From Tepidibacter sp. (lineage in GTDB: Bacteria; Bacillota; Clostridia; Peptostreptococcales; Peptostreptococcaceae): 64,000 bases of DNA. The notes under the pieces were generated by a model. That model worked only from the letters and a program-made list of their open reading frames with translations. It had not been told where the DNA came from and did no database searches. Numbering within the stretch: position 1 is the stretch's first letter; each line of letters begins with the position of its first letter. Where the stretch lies: positions 1 through 64,000 of the forward strand of contig NZ_JAOASI010000013.1 in the NCBI RefSeq assembly GCF_025210165.1, given 5' to 3'. Shown one piece after another: positions 22,731 through 33,638 of this stretch. Made by a program: the position numbers and the translations under genes.

Positions 22731-22757
22731 AAAGGGATGAGTTTCTCCCATCCCTAG
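22731..22757 (-). terminator. Terminator of the sensor kinase gene
   Basis: GGGATG and CATCCC form a short GC-rich stem around the stop codon, followed by TTTTAAAATCTTT on the minus strand. Moderate strength. Confidence 0.55.
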
Positions 22758-24415
22758 ATTAATATATAAAAGATAGTTCCTTTATTCAATTCACTTTCAA
22801 CCCATACTTTACCATTATGCTTATCAACAATTTCCTTTGTAATATATAGACCTAATCCTATTGATTCTCTTTTTGCATTTTTCCCTTTATAATACCTCTC
22901 AAAAATATATAATATGTCTTCTTTATGTATACCAACACCATTATCTTTTATGGATATTTTTATTTTTTCATTTTTTATACATTCAGTAGCAATCTTTATA
23001 TAACCTTCTTCTTTACTATATTTAATTGCATTAATTATTATATTTTCAATAGCTCTATATAGTTTTAATCTATCTATTTTTTTGTTAATTTTCGCTTTTT
23101 CATCTAGCTCTAACAAAAGTTGAATATTTTTAGATTCAGCTTTTAACTCTATATCCTTTAGTATATTTTTAAGGAAATTATTGATATTGACTTCTTCTTT
23201 ATTAAGTACGATTTTGTAATCTTCCAATCTAGATATAAAAAAGAAATCATTGACAATATCATTTAAATATTTCGTTTTTCCATGTACCCTCTTTATGTAC
23301 TTTTCTTTATCTTCTTTTCTTGCTTCTCCATCTATAATAGCCTGAGTATATCCTATGATTACTGTAATAGCGGTTCTTAAATCATGTGATATATTAGTCA
23401 TAAGTTTTGTTTTATCCTTATTAGCTGCTTCTGCTTCTTCTTTTGCTTTAGCTAAATTTGCAAAAGTTTTGTATAAATAGTAGATTACCAATAATAATAT
23501 TGTGCTAAGTATTACTATTGTAAATATAAGCTTTTTTTCTCTATGACTATTTTTAGGCATGATAAATGCCTTTTCATACAACTCATTATAATTTGTATTA
23601 TTTATAACTTTATTGATAATCGGGATTAATTCACCAAAATCTTTTCTTACACCAATAAATACTTGATTCTTTTGTTTTAATTCACCAATTATTTTTATAT
23701 TATCATAGGCTCCTTGTTCTTTATAATAAGTAAATACAGGAATGTCAGTTATAGTATAATCCGCTTTTTTACTTGAAATATATTCTAAAGCTTTTTCCAT
23801 GCTTTCTACTTCAATGATTTTGGTACTAGGATTTTCTTTTGAAATAATGTCTAAAAACCAATAACCTTTAGGTCCAACGCAAGTTTTTCCTTGAAGTTGT
23901 CTAATATCATTAAACAACTTTGAGTTATCTTTATGTCCAAGAATTACTTGACTCATTTCTATATAACAAGTTGAATAATCTAAATATTTAGACCTTTCTT
24001 TTGTAAATGATACAGCAGGAAGAATGTCTATCTTTTTTTCAAAAACATTTTTTAACATTGTATCCCATGTTTCTTTTAAACTATCTTTATGTATTTTAAA
24101 TTTTAATCCTGTTACTTGATTGACTCTCTTAATAATTTCCACACCAATACCCTTTGGATTTCCATTGTTATCAATATATTCTACAGGAATGTAATCCTCC
24201 GCTATCCCTACATATATATTTTGGTCTTTAAATTTCTCTATCCATTTTAATTCTTTGTATGTAAAAATTTCTTTTTTCAGATTGATTGTATCATTTCTTA
24301 TATAAACTTCTTTCATATCTTTATATTTATCAATTGAAACTCCTATTAGAATTAAGAATGATATACTAGTTAAAATTAAGAATCCTATGATAATGATCAT
24401 AAAAAATTTCTTCAT
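22754..24415 (-). CDS. Sensor histidine kinase with periplasmic solute-binding-type (SBP_bac_3) sensor domain
   Basis: This protein has 553 residues. One N-terminal membrane segment (about 5-27) is followed by an extracytoplasmic amino-acid-binding-protein fold (about 57-280; YVGIAEDYIPVEYIDNNG, KGIGVEIIKRVNQVTG), a second membrane segment (about 292-312), then a kinase core: H-box NISHDLRTAI near 342, N-box IENIIINAIKYS, DNGVGI and the GLGLYI lid motif. The sensor design resembles that of BvgS-like kinases and suggests detection of a small ligand such as an amino acid; the ligand is not readable. The response regulator gene is divergent at 24640, not co-transcribed, sharing the 224-base region between them. 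Confidence 0.9.
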   Translation of the reverse strand: MKKFFMIIIIGFLILTSISFLILIGVSIDKYKDMKEVYIRNDTINLKKEIFTYKELKWIEKFKDQNIYVGIAEDYIPVEYIDNNGNPKGIGVEIIKRVNQVTGLKFKIHKDSLKETWDTMLKNVFEKKIDILPAVSFTKERSKYLDYSTCYIEMSQVILGHKDNSKLFNDIRQLQGKTCVGPKGYWFLDIISKENPSTKIIEVESMEKALEYISSKKADYTITDIPVFTYYKEQGAYDNIKIIGELKQKNQVFIGVRKDFGELIPIINKVINNTNYNELYEKAFIMPKNSHREKKLIFTIVILSTILLLVIYYLYKTFANLAKAKEEAEAANKDKTKLMTNISHDLRTAITVIIGYTQAIIDGEARKEDKEKYIKRVHGKTKYLNDIVNDFFFISRLEDYKIVLNKEEVNINNFLKNILKDIELKAESKNIQLLLELDEKAKINKKIDRLKLYRAIENIIINAIKYSKEEGYIKIATECIKNEKIKISIKDNGVGIHKEDILYIFERYYKGKNAKRESIGLGLYITKEIVDKHNGKVWVESELNKGTIFYILI

Positions 24416-24639
24416 TTCTACCCCCCTTTTAATTTCATCAATGACTAACTTTGCTTAATGCAAAAATTTATTTTCAATATATATTCATTATATAATAACA
24501 ATTTTAGTTTTTATTAGACATTTTTCCTTTTATTTGTATATTTTTCTTTTTTTATAGATTCACAAATGTTAAAATACACTATATACATATTTTTGTAAAA
24601 GAAAGGTGGGATTGAAGTTACGATTTAGTAACAAATATA

Positions 24640-25332
24640 ATGGATGAATATAATATACTAGTCGTTGATGATGACCCTGATATAACTGAAGTCATTACTC
24701 TTTACCTTAGAAATTCTGGATATAATGTAAATACTGCCAGTAATTGTAATGAAGCATTAAAAAAGATTAATAATGAATACTTTCATTTAATTATATTAGA
24801 TATTATGCTACCTGACTTTGATGGAACTTTTCTTTGTCAAAAAATTAGACAATATATATATTGTCCTATTATCTTTATCAGTTGTATTGATGATGAAGAT
24901 TATATAATTAATGCATTAAATTTGGGTGGAGATGACTACATAAGAAAGCCCTTTAATCCGAAGGAATTAGTAGCACGTGTTAAATCTAATTTAAGAAGGG
25001 TAATATATGACCAAAATATAAACACACTTAATAATAAAAAATTATCTATTAAAGATTTGACTATTGATGTAGAAAAATATACTGTTATTAATAAAAATAA
25101 AGAGATTTCTTTATCGCCTATAGAATTTAATATCCTCTTATTTATGATTAATAATCCTGACAAAATATTAAGCTACTCTGAAATATATGAGAACGTATGG
25201 AAATGTAAAAGTTTAGGAGATATAAGAACTGTAATGGTTCACGTAAGTAATCTAAGAAAAAAAATAGAAGATAATTCCAGTGAAAAATATATAAAAACTG
25301 TTAAAAAAAAGGGCTATATATTCTTGTCATAA
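24640..25332 (+). CDS. OmpR/PhoB-type response regulator
   Basis: This protein has 230 residues. The receiver domain (1-118) has the acidic pocket D10-D12, phosphorylation site D54 in LIILDIMLPD, and the conserved Lys in YIRKPFNPKE. The C-terminal winged helix (about 130-230) has ISLSPIEFNILLFM and VHVSNLRKKIE, typical of OmpR-type DNA-binding domains. It is the probable partner of the divergent sensor kinase. The ATG lacks a close ribosome site: AAAGGTGGG lies 30 bases upstream and the intervening bases hold an in-frame stop, so no longer protein is possible from there. Expression may depend on upstream translation or be weak. Confidence 0.92.
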   Translation: MDEYNILVVDDDPDITEVITLYLRNSGYNVNTASNCNEALKKINNEYFHLIILDIMLPDFDGTFLCQKIRQYIYCPIIFISCIDDEDYIINALNLGGDDYIRKPFNPKELVARVKSNLRRVIYDQNINTLNNKKLSIKDLTIDVEKYTVINKNKEISLSPIEFNILLFMINNPDKILSYSEIYENVWKCKSLGDIRTVMVHVSNLRKKIEDNSSEKYIKTVKKKGYIFLS

Positions 25333-26565: not shown

Positions 26566-27192
26566 ATGATAGAAAAAATTACTAGTAGCTTTTTCAAATT
26601 TAAACCTCAGATAAATAACTATAAAAGACTATCAAAAGCCTCTGTTTTAATACCTTTAATTCAAAAAGATTCAGATACTTTTATTTTATTTGAAGTTCGA
26701 TCAAAAAATTTAAATACCAGTCCATCTGAAATTTCATTCCCAGGTGGAAAGTTTGATACATCTGATATAACTCTAGAAAGAACAGTTATAAGAGAAACAT
26801 GTGAAGAACTAGGATTAAGCAAAAATAATATTTCTATAATAACACCTTTAAATATACTTGTAACTCCATTTAACATGCTTATACACCCATTTTTAGGTAC
26901 AATAGACAATTACAATAATATTAATATAAATATTTCTGAGGTAGACCATACTTTTTTAGTTCCTTTAGATTTTTTTATTAATACAACTCCTAAGTCTTAT
27001 AAGCATACTATACAAATACATCCTTGTAGTGATTTTCCTTACGACTTAATCCCAAACGGTCAAAATTATAAATTTAAAGAAGGTGTATACGATACATTAA
27101 TATATGAATATAAAAACTATGTTATATGGGGTATAACAGCTAGAATAATAAAAGATTTTATAGACACTATTAAAGAGAATCTACACTTATAA
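26566..27192 (+). CDS. Nudix hydrolase, CoA pyrophosphatase (NudL) type
   Basis: This protein has 208 residues. The Nudix box is present near 62-86 (SFPGGKFDTSD and RETCEELGL, with the catalytic RE and EE). The preceding PSEISFPGG matches the UPF0035 signature of NudL/PCD1-type hydrolases, which cut coenzyme A and its derivatives to phosphopantetheine and 3',5'-ADP. Substrate is inferred from that motif only. The start has an AAAGGAGAA ribosome site. The 3' end overlaps the end of the convergent nuclease gene by 23 bases, with no room for a terminator. Confidence 0.88.
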   Translation: MIEKITSSFFKFKPQINNYKRLSKASVLIPLIQKDSDTFILFEVRSKNLNTSPSEISFPGGKFDTSDITLERTVIRETCEELGLSKNNISIITPLNILVTPFNMLIHPFLGTIDNYNNININISEVDHTFLVPLDFFINTTPKSYKHTIQIHPCSDFPYDLIPNGQNYKFKEGVYDTLIYEYKNYVIWGITARIIKDFIDTIKENLHL

Positions 27193-27838
27193 ACTGTTGG
27201 TTACAAATAGAATTAAATTGACAGAATGAGCAGTGTTTACCTATTCTTTCATCAAAGTTTTTCTCATTTATTATACTAACTATCTTGTTTTTAAGCTCTA
27301 TTTTATTGTATTTATGTTCACTATGGCTATAATCTATTTTTATAGAATTATCAAACCTTGGATTATAGTATATAAGACTTATATCTTCAGGATTCACATC
27401 GAATTTTTCAGCTATATTATGTAAATATATTTTAGTTTGATATGATTTTTCCAACTTTGACTTATCAAACTTACTTTTACTAGTTTTCCAATCATATATA
27501 GTTATCTTTTGTTTTTCTATTTTTATAAGGTCTACTTTTGCTATTAGTGATATTTCCTCGTCTTTGTATTTTATATTATACTCAGGATACATACCTTTTT
27601 CTCTTTTTAAGAACTTTTTTAAATTGTTAAAAAGTATATAATCCGCTCTTCCTTCCTCCAATTCTTCATCTATTCCTATATAATACCTTTGGGCTAATAG
27701 ATGAAACTGGCTACCAAAATTCGGATTATCATTACTCCACTTTATATTATCAATATATATTTTTTTAAATTTAAGCCTACATGTATCGTAGGTATCTATG
27801 CTAGATTGACTAAATTGTATATCTTTCAAATCACTCAT
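27170..27838 (-). CDS. PD-(D/E)XK nuclease with iron-sulfur cysteines (Cas4/AddB-nuclease type)
   Basis: This protein has 222 residues and the full set of RecB-family nuclease motifs: H46 in GSQFHLLAQR, D103 in KVDLIKI, D116 and K118 in IYDWKTSK, and Q134/Y138 in SYQTKIYL. Four cysteines frame the domain: C20, then C203, C206 and C212 near the C terminus (HCSFCQFNSIC). The C...C-x2-C-x5-C layout is that of [4Fe-4S] nucleases such as Cas4 and the AddB nuclease domain. The gene is two bases downstream of a UvrD-type helicase gene and belongs to a three-gene cluster with it and a P-loop protein. It probably supplies the end-processing nuclease of that complex. Confidence 0.9.
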   Translation of the reverse strand: MSDLKDIQFSQSSIDTYDTCRLKFKKIYIDNIKWSNDNPNFGSQFHLLAQRYYIGIDEELEEGRADYILFNNLKKFLKREKGMYPEYNIKYKDEEISLIAKVDLIKIEKQKITIYDWKTSKSKFDKSKLEKSYQTKIYLHNIAEKFDVNPEDISLIYYNPRFDNSIKIDYSHSEHKYNKIELKNKIVSIINEKNFDERIGKHCSFCQFNSICNQQFISVDSL

Positions 27839-27840
27839 GT

Positions 27841-29979
27841 TTACCTTCTCCCTTCTATAAAACGTTGCGTTACATTAAAGTATATAGAATGATTCGATTC
27901 TTTCCCATTTGTATATACATATAACCTCTCTTTTGCTCTAGTAAAGGCTACATAAACAAGTTTTAAAGTTTCAGATAGTATATCACTCTTCATCTTTCTG
28001 GTGATATTTTTAGTTTCTTTATTTTCTATTAAATAATCTATTTCCGATTTATATAAAGTTTCTATATTTTTATATTCTTCTTTTAAATAATACAGTTCTC
28101 CTATAAACTTATCATTGAATTTACCAGGATAATCAGATATTGTCATATGAGGTATAACCACTATATCCCATTCAAGTCCTTTAGCCTTATGACAAGTAGT
28201 TATAGTAACATTTCCCTTTTGTGGCTCATATCCTTGCTCTTCAAATACCATAGATGCAAAATAATTAAATGAATTTTTATTCTTCAAAAGTTCATGGGCT
28301 AAATGTTCTAATGTGAAATTACTGTTTTCAAAAAACATTTTATTACATATGCTCGATATATAATCTAGTATTGCAAGTTCTTGTAAGTTAAATTTAAACT
28401 CTTCTCCTATTTGAACTAAGAACTTATCTATCTTTTGTATAGAGTATTCAAATAAATTTCTAAAACCTTTAAATAGTTCATCTAGCTCTGTTCCTATATC
28501 CATCTTTTGTATAGACTTATTTCCTATTGGAAAAAATATATCTTCTATATTATATTTATCTATCTCACTTTTTTGCATTTCGGTAAGTTCTTCATCATAA
28601 ATAATATCTATAACTTTAAATAAATTTTCTTTGTCAGGATTTGATATAAAACTTACTATTTTTCCTATTTTCTCAATCACAAGAGCTGCCTCTCCTCTAT
28701 ATTTATCTATAACTTGATATGGTATATCTTCTTTTTCAAACAAATTGATATATTTATCTATCTTATAATTATATCTAAGAAGCAGTGCTATTGTTTTATC
28801 TGGATATTTTTTTACAATATTTTTTATATTACAAACAACATCCTTCATCTCTATATCTTCATTTTGGCAAGTTTTTGTATATATACCGATATCATCTACA
28901 ACTGGATTCTGAAATGGATCATCCTCATCAACAGGCTTTATATACTGCTTTACTAAAACTTCATCTTTATTTAGCTCCATCCCATTTTCATTGCTCCATT
29001 TTACTAAGTAATTTGCAAGGTTCAATATATTTTTTGTATTTCTACTAGATACTGGTATAACTATTTTATCTACATCTTCTCTTTCACAAAATCTTCTAAA
29101 TAGTCTATAATCAGAATTTGTAAACGTTGACATTATAGCTTGATTAGGATCTCCAACTCTAACTAAATTCTTGTTATCTTTAGATAATAATGCTAATATT
29201 TTTTCTTGAGCAGGAGATGAATCTTGTGCCTCATCTTCAAATATATATGTATATTTTTGTTGAAATTTATTTAATATATCTTCTTTATTTTGCAGTACCC
29301 TTAAAGCCCTAATAATTATATCATCATAATCTAATTTTCCTTTTTTTATTAAGTCTTTTTCATAGAAAATATATATATTGACTATTATCTTTAAAAGATC
29401 ATCCATTTTAGGATTGTTTCTTAATATATTCTGAGCTTCATTATACGTTATTCCTTTTGACTTTAAATAACTTATTATGTTTTTAGCTACAGATATAAAT
29501 TTATCACTCCACTTTTTTTCGATTTTTTGTATATATTCCTGAGAACTGTTATTTCTTATATTTAAATATTTAGAATATATATGCTTATAAGTTTTATAAA
29601 ATTCAAATGAATGTTTTCTAATTATATCATTAGCCTCAATATCATCTATAACTTCAAAATCATCGTCAAGTCCTGCATCCTTTGGGCTTTCTCTTATTAT
29701 AGAATTAGCTAAAGAATGAAGAGTCTTACATTCCCATCCGTTCTTACTATCAAGACCTTTATCTTCTAATAAAGTCTTTAGCTTTGTTTTAAAATTTGAT
29801 ACAGCACTATTAGTAAAGGTAACTATAAGAATTTTACCATCTTTATTTAAGTCCTGCTCTATAAGTTCTGCTGTTTTTGATGTTATAACTGTAGTTTTTC
29901 CAGCACCTGGAACAGATGGTACAGCAAGCGTACCTCCTTTATACTGCATCACTTGTATTTGACCTTCTCTCCACTTCAT
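27841..29979 (-). CDS. UvrD/Rep-family (superfamily 1) DNA helicase
   Basis: This protein has 712 residues. It carries Walker A (PGAGKTT, 24-30), DEAQD near residue 250, VGDPNQAIMSTF shortly after, and the C-terminal helicase motifs TTCHKAKGLEWD near 610 and YVAFTRAKERLYVY near 685. It stops there: the nuclease domain present at the C terminus of AddA/RecB is absent, and the nuclease is a separate gene immediately downstream. The next gene upstream encodes a P-loop protein 12 bases away. A split, AddAB-like resection machine is the best reading. It could also be a phage-defence helicase-nuclease. Confidence 0.92.
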   Translation of the reverse strand: MKWREGQIQVMQYKGGTLAVPSVPGAGKTTVITSKTAELIEQDLNKDGKILIVTFTNSAVSNFKTKLKTLLEDKGLDSKNGWECKTLHSLANSIIRESPKDAGLDDDFEVIDDIEANDIIRKHSFEFYKTYKHIYSKYLNIRNNSSQEYIQKIEKKWSDKFISVAKNIISYLKSKGITYNEAQNILRNNPKMDDLLKIIVNIYIFYEKDLIKKGKLDYDDIIIRALRVLQNKEDILNKFQQKYTYIFEDEAQDSSPAQEKILALLSKDNKNLVRVGDPNQAIMSTFTNSDYRLFRRFCEREDVDKIVIPVSSRNTKNILNLANYLVKWSNENGMELNKDEVLVKQYIKPVDEDDPFQNPVVDDIGIYTKTCQNEDIEMKDVVCNIKNIVKKYPDKTIALLLRYNYKIDKYINLFEKEDIPYQVIDKYRGEAALVIEKIGKIVSFISNPDKENLFKVIDIIYDEELTEMQKSEIDKYNIEDIFFPIGNKSIQKMDIGTELDELFKGFRNLFEYSIQKIDKFLVQIGEEFKFNLQELAILDYISSICNKMFFENSNFTLEHLAHELLKNKNSFNYFASMVFEEQGYEPQKGNVTITTCHKAKGLEWDIVVIPHMTISDYPGKFNDKFIGELYYLKEEYKNIETLYKSEIDYLIENKETKNITRKMKSDILSETLKLVYVAFTRAKERLYVYTNGKESNHSIYFNVTQRFIEGRR

Positions 29980-29991
29980 AATTTATCTCCT

Positions 29992-31854
29992 TTAAGAATC
30001 TGCCTTTATATATTTATTTAACTCACCCGTTTGTTCATATCCATTAGAGTTAAATTCACTACTATATATATATACTTTATCCGAAGCTTTTCTAAGTAAT
30101 CTGTCAACTACACTTTTAGTCTGCTTATATCTATATAATTGTTCATTATCAAAATTCCATTTTTCACCTTTATTTTCTCTTAAAAAGATAAATGAATTGT
30201 GATATTTTTTTATTCCTATTTGATGCCATACATCTGAATTTGAATCTGTCCATATTTGTATTTTGCTTTTTTTAGAGCTTAACAAATACGAATAAGATGA
30301 CCAGACCTTTATTCCATTTGACTCTATATCATCTCTTGTATCAGAAACCCTTATACCCTTTGAAATCATATCTATAAATAATTTATTTTTATTATTTTTA
30401 AACTTTTCATTCTCATCAGCATAGTCTATAAATGATTTAGCCAGATTTATTAAATAATTACATGTACTTAAATTTTCTGCATTTACATTAAGAGGTAGCA
30501 GTATATCCAAAAACATTTTTTTCAAAAACTTATCCATATCAAGTTCACTATTTGTATTTTCGTATATCCAATTTCTTAAAATTTCATATTTATTTATATA
30601 CTCTTTATCTATATCAATAGATATTAACTCTTCAATTCCTGGAAGTTCATAAGGTTCTTTTTGAGTTATGTTATTAGTTATGTACCTAGACCTTATCATA
30701 TCTGTATCCAATATAAATGATACCATTTTACATATAGAATCTTTATTAGGACTCATTTTCCAAGAACTATTTACTAAAAGTGTTATAGTAACTAAGCTAT
30801 TTATATATGGATTATCAGTAAGAGATCCACTTCTAGTCATAATATTTATATTAACACCATTTTTATCCATCTCTTTTTTTATTCTATTCTCAAATATAGA
30901 ATCTACAAATGGCCCTATTATATCTATATCCTCTTCTTTATACCCATTTGTTAATAGTTTTTGAATGTCTTCAGATATTTTAAGTATCATCTCACTTCTC
31001 ATATTAGAATTTTTAAATTCTATATTCTCTATATTTATAAAATTCGATGTACCTATATCTATGCTTTTACATTTAGGAAGTATTACCTGTTTGAAAGTTT
31101 CCTCGTCAGCCCCAAGTATCTTTGTTATAGCTCCATCAGAATTATAAGCTATATGAGTTTCCTTTACTATATTCATTACCTTATTTATAAATTTAAGTTC
31201 AAGAAATGACTTTTCTTGAACATCATCCACAATAAAATAATCTATATTATTTTTTATATACTCCTCATATAAAGGGTCATCTATTATATATTTATTGAAA
31301 AGATATGATGCTAAGCTAAAATTCAAAACACCTTCATTTATGTTTTTTCTAACAAATACATTTATTATATCCTTCATAGATAAAATATTCTCTTTTACAA
31401 GTATATCTTCTATATCTAAAAAGTTAACTAAATACTTATCTACTTCATCAAATTCTATGCAATTTAGAGATATTTTAGATATATTATTAAGTATATCGGA
31501 TGACAAAACCGAGTTAGGTATATTTATATCTAAAAACCTTCCTCCTTCTCTATATTTATCTACAAGTTTATTTAGAAGATACTCACTTATCTCCATATCT
31601 AAAAACTTTGGAGTATTCTTTTTTATTTTAATATTCTTTTGTACTAAAGGCCAAAATAAAACTATATGATTTCTAATTATTTTATAAAATGTACTAGTAT
31701 CTATATCTTTCCAAAATCTTTTTTGAGATTTAGAGTTTATAAATACAATTATTTTATTTTCATTAATATTATTTTTTATAAATTCTTTATATATATTTAT
31801 CAACTTAGTCGTTTTACCACAATTAGATGACCCAGTGTATACATATTTACTCAT
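29992..31854 (-). CDS. P-loop ATPase, probable AddB-like partner of the helicase
   Basis: This protein has 620 residues from the ATG at 31852-31854; a TTG one codon upstream fits the GGTGGTG ribosome site less well. A Walker A motif is seen at GSSNCGKTTKL near residues 6-16 and a Walker B-like IDYFIVDDVQE near 205. The remainder has an SF1-helicase-like layout (NMRSEMILKISEDIQKLL, DIDIIGPFVDSI, MTRSGSLTDNP) but clear C-terminal helicase motifs are missing. No iron-sulfur cysteines or nuclease motif is seen, in contrast to full AddB. Gene order (this protein, UvrD helicase, Cas4-like nuclease) suggests a complex with the two others. Family name not recognised with certainty. Confidence 0.75.
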   Translation of the reverse strand: MSKYVYTGSSNCGKTTKLINIYKEFIKNNINENKIIVFINSKSQKRFWKDIDTSTFYKIIRNHIVLFWPLVQKNIKIKKNTPKFLDMEISEYLLNKLVDKYREGGRFLDINIPNSVLSSDILNNISKISLNCIEFDEVDKYLVNFLDIEDILVKENILSMKDIINVFVRKNINEGVLNFSLASYLFNKYIIDDPLYEEYIKNNIDYFIVDDVQEKSFLELKFINKVMNIVKETHIAYNSDGAITKILGADEETFKQVILPKCKSIDIGTSNFINIENIEFKNSNMRSEMILKISEDIQKLLTNGYKEEDIDIIGPFVDSIFENRIKKEMDKNGVNINIMTRSGSLTDNPYINSLVTITLLVNSSWKMSPNKDSICKMVSFILDTDMIRSRYITNNITQKEPYELPGIEELISIDIDKEYINKYEILRNWIYENTNSELDMDKFLKKMFLDILLPLNVNAENLSTCNYLINLAKSFIDYADENEKFKNNKNKLFIDMISKGIRVSDTRDDIESNGIKVWSSYSYLLSSKKSKIQIWTDSNSDVWHQIGIKKYHNSFIFLRENKGEKWNFDNEQLYRYKQTKSVVDRLLRKASDKVYIYSSEFNSNGYEQTGELNKYIKADS

Positions 31855-31890: not shown

Positions 31891-31928
31891 ACAAAAACCT
31901 TATGACTATATCGACATAAGGTTTTTGT
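31891..31928 (-). terminator. Terminator of ptsI
   Basis: ACAAAAACCTTATG pairs with CATAAGGTTTTTGT over 14 bases, just past the ptsI stop codon, with T runs at the end. Confidence 0.88.
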
Positions 31929-31931
31929 TAT

Positions 31932-33638
31932 TTAAGCAAAATTATTTTCCATATATTCTTCTATTTCTTTAGAAGTACCCATAGATACTACTTTTTCGGC
32001 TACTTCTTTCATTTCTTCATATTTTAATGAATTTATAAGCTTTCTAGCTGAAAGTATAGATATTGGACTCATACTGAATTCATCAAGTCCCATTCCAAGT
32101 AATATTGGAATCATTCTCTTATCTCCTGCTGCTTCTCCACACATACCTACCCATTTACCTTCTTTATGACCATTGTCTATAACCATTTTGATAAGTCTTA
32201 AAACAGCAGGATTAAATTGATTATATAGATTTTGTATTTTTTCATTCATTCTGTCTACTGCAGTAGTGTATTGTATTAAATCATTAGTTCCTATACTAAA
32301 GAAATCAACATGCTTTGCAAGTATATCTGATATTAATGCAGCTGATGGAACTTCTATCATCATACCAACTTCTATATTCTTGCTGTAAGATATACCTTCT
32401 TTATCTAAATCACATTTAACACTCTCAAGTATTTCTTTTGCCAAAAGTAATTCTTCAAGACTAGATATCATAGGGAACATTATTCTTAAGTTTCCACTTA
32501 CACTAGCTCTTAAAAGAGCTCTTAATTGAGTTTTGAATATATCTTGTCTATCAAGACATAATCTTATAGCTCTATATCCCAAGAAAGGATTCATTTCCTT
32601 ATCCATTTGAAGATACGAAAGCTCTTTGTCTCCACCTATATCAAGAGTTCTTATAACTATAGGTTTTGGATTCATACTCTCAAGAACAGCCTTATAAGAT
32701 TCATATTGCTCATCTTCTGTTGGAAAATCTGATCTATCCATGTATAAAAATTCAGTTCTATAAAGTCCAACACCTTCTGCACCGTTGTTTATAAGGCCTT
32801 GTACATCATTTGGAGTTCCTATATTACCCGCTAACTCTACATGTCTTGAATCTAATGTTTTACTTTCTTGTCCTTTTAAAGACTCTAATTCTTTTTTTTC
32901 TTTCTCAAACTTTTCTTTTAAAGTTCTATATTCATTTATAGTATTTTCATCTGGATTTACTATAACTTCACCTGTTTCCCCATTAAATATTACATAATCT
33001 CCATCTTTAACAGCCTTAGTTATATTTTTAAGTCCTACAACCGCTGGTATTTCTAATGTTCTAGCCATTATAGCTGTATGAGAAGTCCTTCCGCCTATAT
33101 TAGTTAAAAATCCTATAATATTTTTCTTATTCATAGTTGCAGTATCAGATGGTGTTAAGTCATTAGCAATTAATACAACTTCATCTTCAAGAGCTGATAA
33201 ATCTATGAATTTTATATTTAATATATGTCGTAAAACTCTATTAGCTACATCCTTTATATCCGCTGCTCTTTCTTTCATATATTCATTATCCATAGATTCA
33301 AACATAGAAACAAACATACTCTTTATTTCATTCAATGCATAATCAGCATTTACTTTTTCATCTTTTATTTTACTTAAAGTAGAATCTACAAGTTCTGGAT
33401 CTTGAAGAACTAATAGATGTGCTTCAAATATTTCAGCTTTTTCTGCTCCTAACTCAACTAAAGCCCTTTCCTTAATCTTAATCAATTCTTCTTTTGATTT
33501 GTCTATTGCATCCATTAGTTTTTTCTGTTCTAACTCTATATTCTCTATAGTTTTCTTTTCTATAATTATTTCATTATGCTCTAATACTAACGCTTTCCCC
33601 AAAGCAATACCAGGTGATGCATTCATTCCTTTAATCAT
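31932..33638 (-). CDS. ptsI: Phosphoenolpyruvate-protein phosphotransferase (PTS enzyme I)
   Basis: This protein of 568 residues phosphorylates HPr from phosphoenolpyruvate, the first step of all PTS sugar uptake. The phosphorylated histidine is in GGRTSHTAIMAR near residue 188. The PEP-binding C-terminal half carries GVGLYRTEFLYMDR, PMISSLEEL, VGMMIEVPSAALI and MCGEAAGD motifs. The usual partner gene ptsH is not adjacent, which is somewhat unusual. A dispersed repeat (33658-33790) lies directly upstream of its AAGGAGAGG ribosome site, so the message leader probably contains it. Confidence 0.97.
   Translation of the reverse strand: MIKGMNASPGIALGKALVLEHNEIIIEKKTIENIELEQKKLMDAIDKSKEELIKIKERALVELGAEKAEIFEAHLLVLQDPELVDSTLSKIKDEKVNADYALNEIKSMFVSMFESMDNEYMKERAADIKDVANRVLRHILNIKFIDLSALEDEVVLIANDLTPSDTATMNKKNIIGFLTNIGGRTSHTAIMARTLEIPAVVGLKNITKAVKDGDYVIFNGETGEVIVNPDENTINEYRTLKEKFEKEKKELESLKGQESKTLDSRHVELAGNIGTPNDVQGLINNGAEGVGLYRTEFLYMDRSDFPTEDEQYESYKAVLESMNPKPIVIRTLDIGGDKELSYLQMDKEMNPFLGYRAIRLCLDRQDIFKTQLRALLRASVSGNLRIMFPMISSLEELLLAKEILESVKCDLDKEGISYSKNIEVGMMIEVPSAALISDILAKHVDFFSIGTNDLIQYTTAVDRMNEKIQNLYNQFNPAVLRLIKMVIDNGHKEGKWVGMCGEAAGDKRMIPILLGMGLDEFSMSPISILSARKLINSLKYEEMKEVAEKVVSMGTSKEIEEYMENNFA

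Follow-up and report, generated by a model that had tools for sequence, protein, structure and literature searches.

A recurrent gene trio of Bacillota encodes a candidate helicase–nuclease for DNA ends with a free-standing nuclease subunit

Three bacterial enzymes that resect DNA ends are usually distinguished: RecBCD, AddAB, and AdnAB. In a contig of Tepidibacter sp. (NCBI RefSeq assembly GCF_025210165.1, contig NZ_JAOASI010000013.1), of which we analyzed the first 64,000 nucleotides (hereafter the window), a P-loop protein, a UvrD-type helicase, and a small nuclease are encoded side by side by genes that we call P, H, and N. A reading made from the sequence alone had seen in them a likeness to a split AddAB that could serve either as the organism's end-resection machine or as a dedicated anti-phage complex. 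The locus thus raises the question of whether the three proteins form one machine and, if so, what it acts on. The genes and the element upstream of them are as follows (window positions).

29992–31854, minus strand: gene P, 620 aa; UvrD-fold superfamily-1 protein without a nuclease domain (from the ORF, AlphaFold and Foldseek predictions, and the motifs of homologues)
27841–29979, minus strand: gene H, 712 aa; UvrD/PcrA-type superfamily-1 DNA helicase without a nuclease domain (from Pfam, NCBIfam, and motifs)
27170–27838, minus strand: gene N, 222 aa; stand-alone PD-(D/E)XK nuclease with four cysteines, predicted to bind Fe–S (from Pfam and residue conservation)
31891–31928, minus strand: hairpin with a T-run between ptsI and P, ACAAAAACCTTATG...CATAAGGTTTTTGT (seen by eye)

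All three genes are intact ORFs transcribed in the order P-H-N, with exactly 12 bases between P and H and 2 bases between H and N. P, which starts with an ATG at 31854 and has a TTG one codon upstream, is the first gene of the minus-strand set. On one side of the trio is ptsI, with its end at 31932 and the hairpin after it at 31928–31891, and on the other a convergent NUDIX gene. Our reading of this hairpin by eye suggests a ptsI terminator, an automatic scan not having listed it, and with a terminator-like structure at this place the trio is probably a separate transcription unit. The site downstream of ptsI is common to Tepidibacter species (our relative genomes include T. mesophilus, G001; T. 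thalassicus, G024; and T. formicigenes, G443). Elsewhere in the window, positions 22754–25332 encode a response regulator and a sensor kinase, divergently transcribed, whose extracellular part is solute-binding-like.

As had been noticed at first sight, this locus encodes separately what AddAB fuses. H matched the Pfam families UvrD-helicase (E 3e-47) and UvrD_C (E 1e-26), and its motif VI begins at residue 672 of 712, the protein ending 23 residues after the motif and leaving no space for a nuclease domain; the helicase motifs were all intact in 36/36 tabulated loci, in every lineage tabulated. N matched PDDEXK_1 (E 1e-24) and shows the signature H...D...DxK...Q..Y plus C-x(n)-CxxCx(5)C of the four-cysteine AddB/Cas4-type Fe–S nucleases. 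The catalytic residues H46, D103, D116, and K118 are kept in all 54 loci compared and the cysteines C20, C203, C206, and C212 in 53–54 of them (the three C-terminal ones in 53, the remaining locus being gapped there), and N is predicted to hold an Fe–S cluster. It is not the Cas4 of a CRISPR system, scoring 44 bits against the cut-off of 65 of the NCBIfam Cas4 model TIGR00372, and the CRISPR-linked Cas4 of the genome lies on another contig. That gene belongs to a type I-B-like CRISPR–Cas operon with Cas4 and Cas1 (G000:C77, 40000–53054; L086).

Searched as a single sequence against Pfam, NCBIfam, PADLOC, and PHROGs, P gave no significant or useful match. With the alignment of its homologues, PF00580 (UvrD-helicase) was matched in 15 of 29, at best with E 7e-12, and the AlphaFold model of P (pLDDT 86.7) was matched by Foldseek to UvrD (E 1e-19 over ~690 alignment columns), AdnB, AddB, AddA, and RecC. 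By this model P has the UvrD fold over its full length and no nuclease domain, the predicted fold being of the SF1A UvrD-like type. The ATPase motifs are recognizable as GSSNCGKT (Walker A, motif I), FIVDDVQE (motif II), MRSEM (motif IV), and a basic motif VI. The earlier view of P as an AddB-type ATPase stripped of its nuclease holds for the fold, which matches AddB and RecC well, but P stands nearer to H in profile comparison (E 8e-6 vs. 0.07 for AddB) and nearer to AdnB in structure, where the TM-score was highest (0.70 vs. 0.59 for AddB). We rejected a split-off helicase-like part of AddB as its origin, since the AddB profile match is weak and that to H stronger. In some genomes of the family coded f63, the P frame including Walker A continues upstream (L172 near 5174, L178 near 5566, and L132 near 3429); the extension has a GGAGG-like motif and no ATG, GTG, or TTG start, which hints at a rare start codon.

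Across Bacillota, the order P-H-N on one strand was found in 54/54 trio loci, often with overlapping reading frames, a recurrence far beyond chance; the cluster described from one sequence is a conserved unit. Among 391 Clostridia genomes, N (scored as present at E <= 1e-10) was carried by the same 18 genomes as full-length P; one further genome had part of P at the end of a contig, and those weak hits to P that were examined elsewhere proved to be ordinary UvrD-type helicases. The genes next to the trio differ between lineages. A phylum-wide sample added 18 genomes with P from more than 10 families, in all of which P-H-N was found, with recJ next after N in 15 (two of the other three end at the contig edge), and P-H-N-recJ is also the arrangement in 7/8 genomes of two other Clostridia families (f63 and f70). 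The DHH motifs of the linked RecJ are intact, and in most genomes checked this protein is the second RecJ. This paralogue of ~745–790 aa directly follows N in L171, L172, L174–L178, and L198–L215, the canonical RecJ being encoded elsewhere in most of those genomes. In Peptostreptococcaceae, P-H-N-addB-addA was found in 26/26 genomes with both systems, mostly with overlapping frames (the order in G034 spans a contig break and is inferred, and the P of G017 is off the end of its contig). In L077, L080, and L084, whose fetched stretches extend far enough, addA is followed by SbcD–SbcC-like genes. The trio stands without linked recJ or addBA in Clostridium species, Tepidibacter, and the genus g7.

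Family searches found no canonical addA, no addB, and no RecB-like nuclease fusion in the window's genome. H is not AddA, with 94 bits against the TIGR02785 cut-off of 707.65 and no nuclease domain, and the AddB model TIGR02773 matched neither P nor anything else in that genome. Its only PDDEXK_1 proteins are N and the Cas4 of the type I-B CRISPR locus. A PF12705 screen revealed no long fused nuclease frame there, nor in the other trio carriers T. formicigenes (G443), the near-complete G331 and G381, G447, or G493, nor in G246, G531, and G563, which are only 80–87% complete. By the same searches (TIGR02773, TIGR02785, and PF12705 on sampled, partly draft genomes), AddA and AddB were absent from 7/7 genomes of three trio-bearing genera (g1, g22, and g7), and the remaining 30 Peptostreptococcaceae genomes of the sample had both; Tepidibacter and one other genus of this family have kept the trio and lack AddAB. 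As no other enzyme of AddAB, RecBCD, or AdnAB type was found, the trio is probably the main end-resection complex in Tepidibacter. A plain substitute for AddAB in a housekeeping position, the outcome that the sequence-only reading had set against its own proposal, describes the situation within Tepidibacter but not elsewhere: most trio-bearing genomes also carry AddAB, and the trio is therefore not simply its replacement. The absence of AddAB was not significantly enriched with the trio (6/18 vs. 64/373, P = 0.11), and mutual exclusivity of the two systems is unsupported (P = 0.11 and P = 0.57). L183 (G143) and L184 (G202) have divergent AddA/AddB pairs that score far below the cut-offs of the Gram-positive AddAB models, their AddB partners having ADDB_N and PDDEXK_1 domains.

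The ATPase motifs of P have a history of their own. Tepidibacter, g7, Clostridium, f63, and f70 have all conserved motifs I, II, IV, and VI, as has, with small variations, the phylum-wide set. In the addBA-linked clade of Peptostreptococcaceae, each of the four is lost or altered. This clade forms one branch with full support in a tree of P, H, and N, in which the placement of Tepidibacter is uncertain due to long branches. The C. difficile P is nevertheless still predicted to have a UvrD-type fold (pLDDT 85.5, with matches to UvrD and AddB). The restriction of motif loss to one addBA-linked branch suggests that P lost its motor function a single time, in the lineage that carries it in one operon with addBA, a fate recalling that of RecC. 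We also considered that Walker A might be kept only where AddAB is missing and rejected this, since both occur together in Clostridium, f63, and other Bacillota; the loss instead tracks the operon fusion on that one branch. The joint loss of the motifs on joining addBA offers a natural experiment on the change from a motor to a RecC-like scaffold. Separately, P is strongly eroded or divergent in genus g6 (L080, L084, and L179–L181; 531–731 aa, with no recognizable Walker A or motif II), and H, N, addB, and addA are intact at these loci.

Judging from motifs, predicted folds, and gene linkage, we consider it likely that P, H, and N assemble into one helicase–nuclease whose role is to process double-strand DNA ends in recombinational repair. 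Such a complex would act like AddAB, AdnAB, or RecBC but with the nuclease on a separate polypeptide. P and H would pair as two UvrD-fold subunits on the DNA end, H being, by homology to UvrD, the 3′-to-5′ unwinding motor, and P, whose ATP site appears complete in Tepidibacter, a second motor or a DNA-guiding partner; in the AddAB-linked clade P may have become a scaffold without motor activity, like RecC. N, docked on the P–H pair, would cut the unwound strand, and in many Bacillota the dedicated second RecJ could trim the 5′ strand, so that the DNA would be handed over to RecJ or processed in co-operation with AddAB where these are linked.

A helicase and a nuclease could, however, serve replication-fork repair rather than end resection. 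The trio may be a Dna2-like repair unit whose substrates are stalled forks, flaps, or lagging-strand intermediates and whose downstream partners are RecJ or AddAB: N is of the Cas4/Dna2/AddB type with its predicted Fe–S cluster, a second RecJ accompanies the trio, and a distinct substrate would explain why most genomes keep both AddAB and the trio. We nevertheless think this unlikely, as the three linkages, to recJ, to addBA, and to sbcDC after addA, all indicate the processing of broken ends, and in genomes without AddAB the trio is the only enzyme of its kind.

Part of the trio has been seen before. Hudaiberdiev et al. 2017 (PMC5704561) described an unfused operon of UvrD and Cas4-like genes, mostly in Clostridiales, in a non-defense context and proposed a role in repair, and their pair is very likely our H–N pair. 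The text of that paper does not mention P or a third subunit, RecJ, the linkage to AddAB, or the loss of P motifs, and we found no published description of P, of the RecJ and AddAB linkages, or of the loss of the motor.

The same paper bears on the proposal that the trio is a dedicated anti-phage system, like Gabija or the UvrD–Cas4 fusions of defense islands. Such fusions do occur in defense contexts according to that paper, H matches GajB profiles (E 7e-46), and N matches profiles of Cas4 and of Argonaute-associated nucleases. The GajB match nevertheless reflects generic UvrD similarity, and GajA, the OLD-type ATPase with a TOPRIM nuclease, was matched neither by P or N nor by the ten neighboring genes. 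Among those ten genes there was no defense system, only a response-regulator domain being matched, and a scan of viral contigs gave no P homologue. The trio sits at the same housekeeping site downstream of ptsI in Tepidibacter species, its linked genes in other families are recJ, addBA, and sbcDC, and the unfused Clostridiales pair was judged not to be defensive by the authors who described it. The anti-phage half of the first proposal was thus abandoned as very improbable. Finally, co-operonic genes need not build one complex, but the reading of P, H, and N as merely co-regulated and working apart (a PcrA-like helicase, which H alone resembles in full, a solo Cas4-like nuclease, and an unrelated ATPase) deserves equally little credence given the strict co-occurrence and order across many families and the UvrD fold that P shares with the partner subunits of AddAB and AdnAB.

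The end-processing complex may also bear on an observation in C. difficile, where deletion of addAB left SOS induction and growth largely intact and another exonuclease was postulated (PMC6344619). The trio lies directly upstream of addB in this species, outside the addAB deletion, and is a candidate for the enzyme that still yields SOS-inducing single-stranded DNA when addAB is lacking.

Whether P-H-N(-RecJ) should be placed as a fourth bacterial class beside RecBCD, AddAB, and AdnAB is, in our judgment, evenly balanced. This class would combine a free-standing nuclease with two UvrD-type motors and occur in many families of Bacillota; it would have replaced AddAB in several lineages and merged with it into one operon in one clade, the second motor being switched off there by the loss of ATPase motifs. 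If many anaerobic Firmicutes do share a conserved fourth arrangement, this would explain how Tepidibacter copes without AddAB. Among known systems, AddAB of the B. subtilis type resembles the trio in its two UvrD-fold subunits and AddB-like predicted Fe–S PD-(D/E)XK nuclease, and in Peptostreptococcaceae shares its operon; the trio differs in having a single nuclease as a separate protein, an H below the AddA cut-off (94 vs. 708 bits), and a P missed by the AddB model. AdnAB of mycobacteria is likewise a pair of UvrD-like motors, and AdnB is the top TM-score match of P (0.70), but AdnA and AdnB each have a fused nuclease and no subunit of the trio has one. Resection by RecQ–RecJ or of the Dna2 type also relies on a helicase with a separate nuclease, and the trio shares the connection to RecJ, whereas it brings a pair of SF1 UvrD-type helicases and an additional PD-(D/E)XK nuclease. 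In RecBCD the nuclease is fused to RecB, and the trio has no RecD partner; the P of Tepidibacter keeps the ATPase motifs, while the P of the addBA-linked clade, with its motifs lost and fold kept, resembles RecC as a degenerate UvrD-fold partner.
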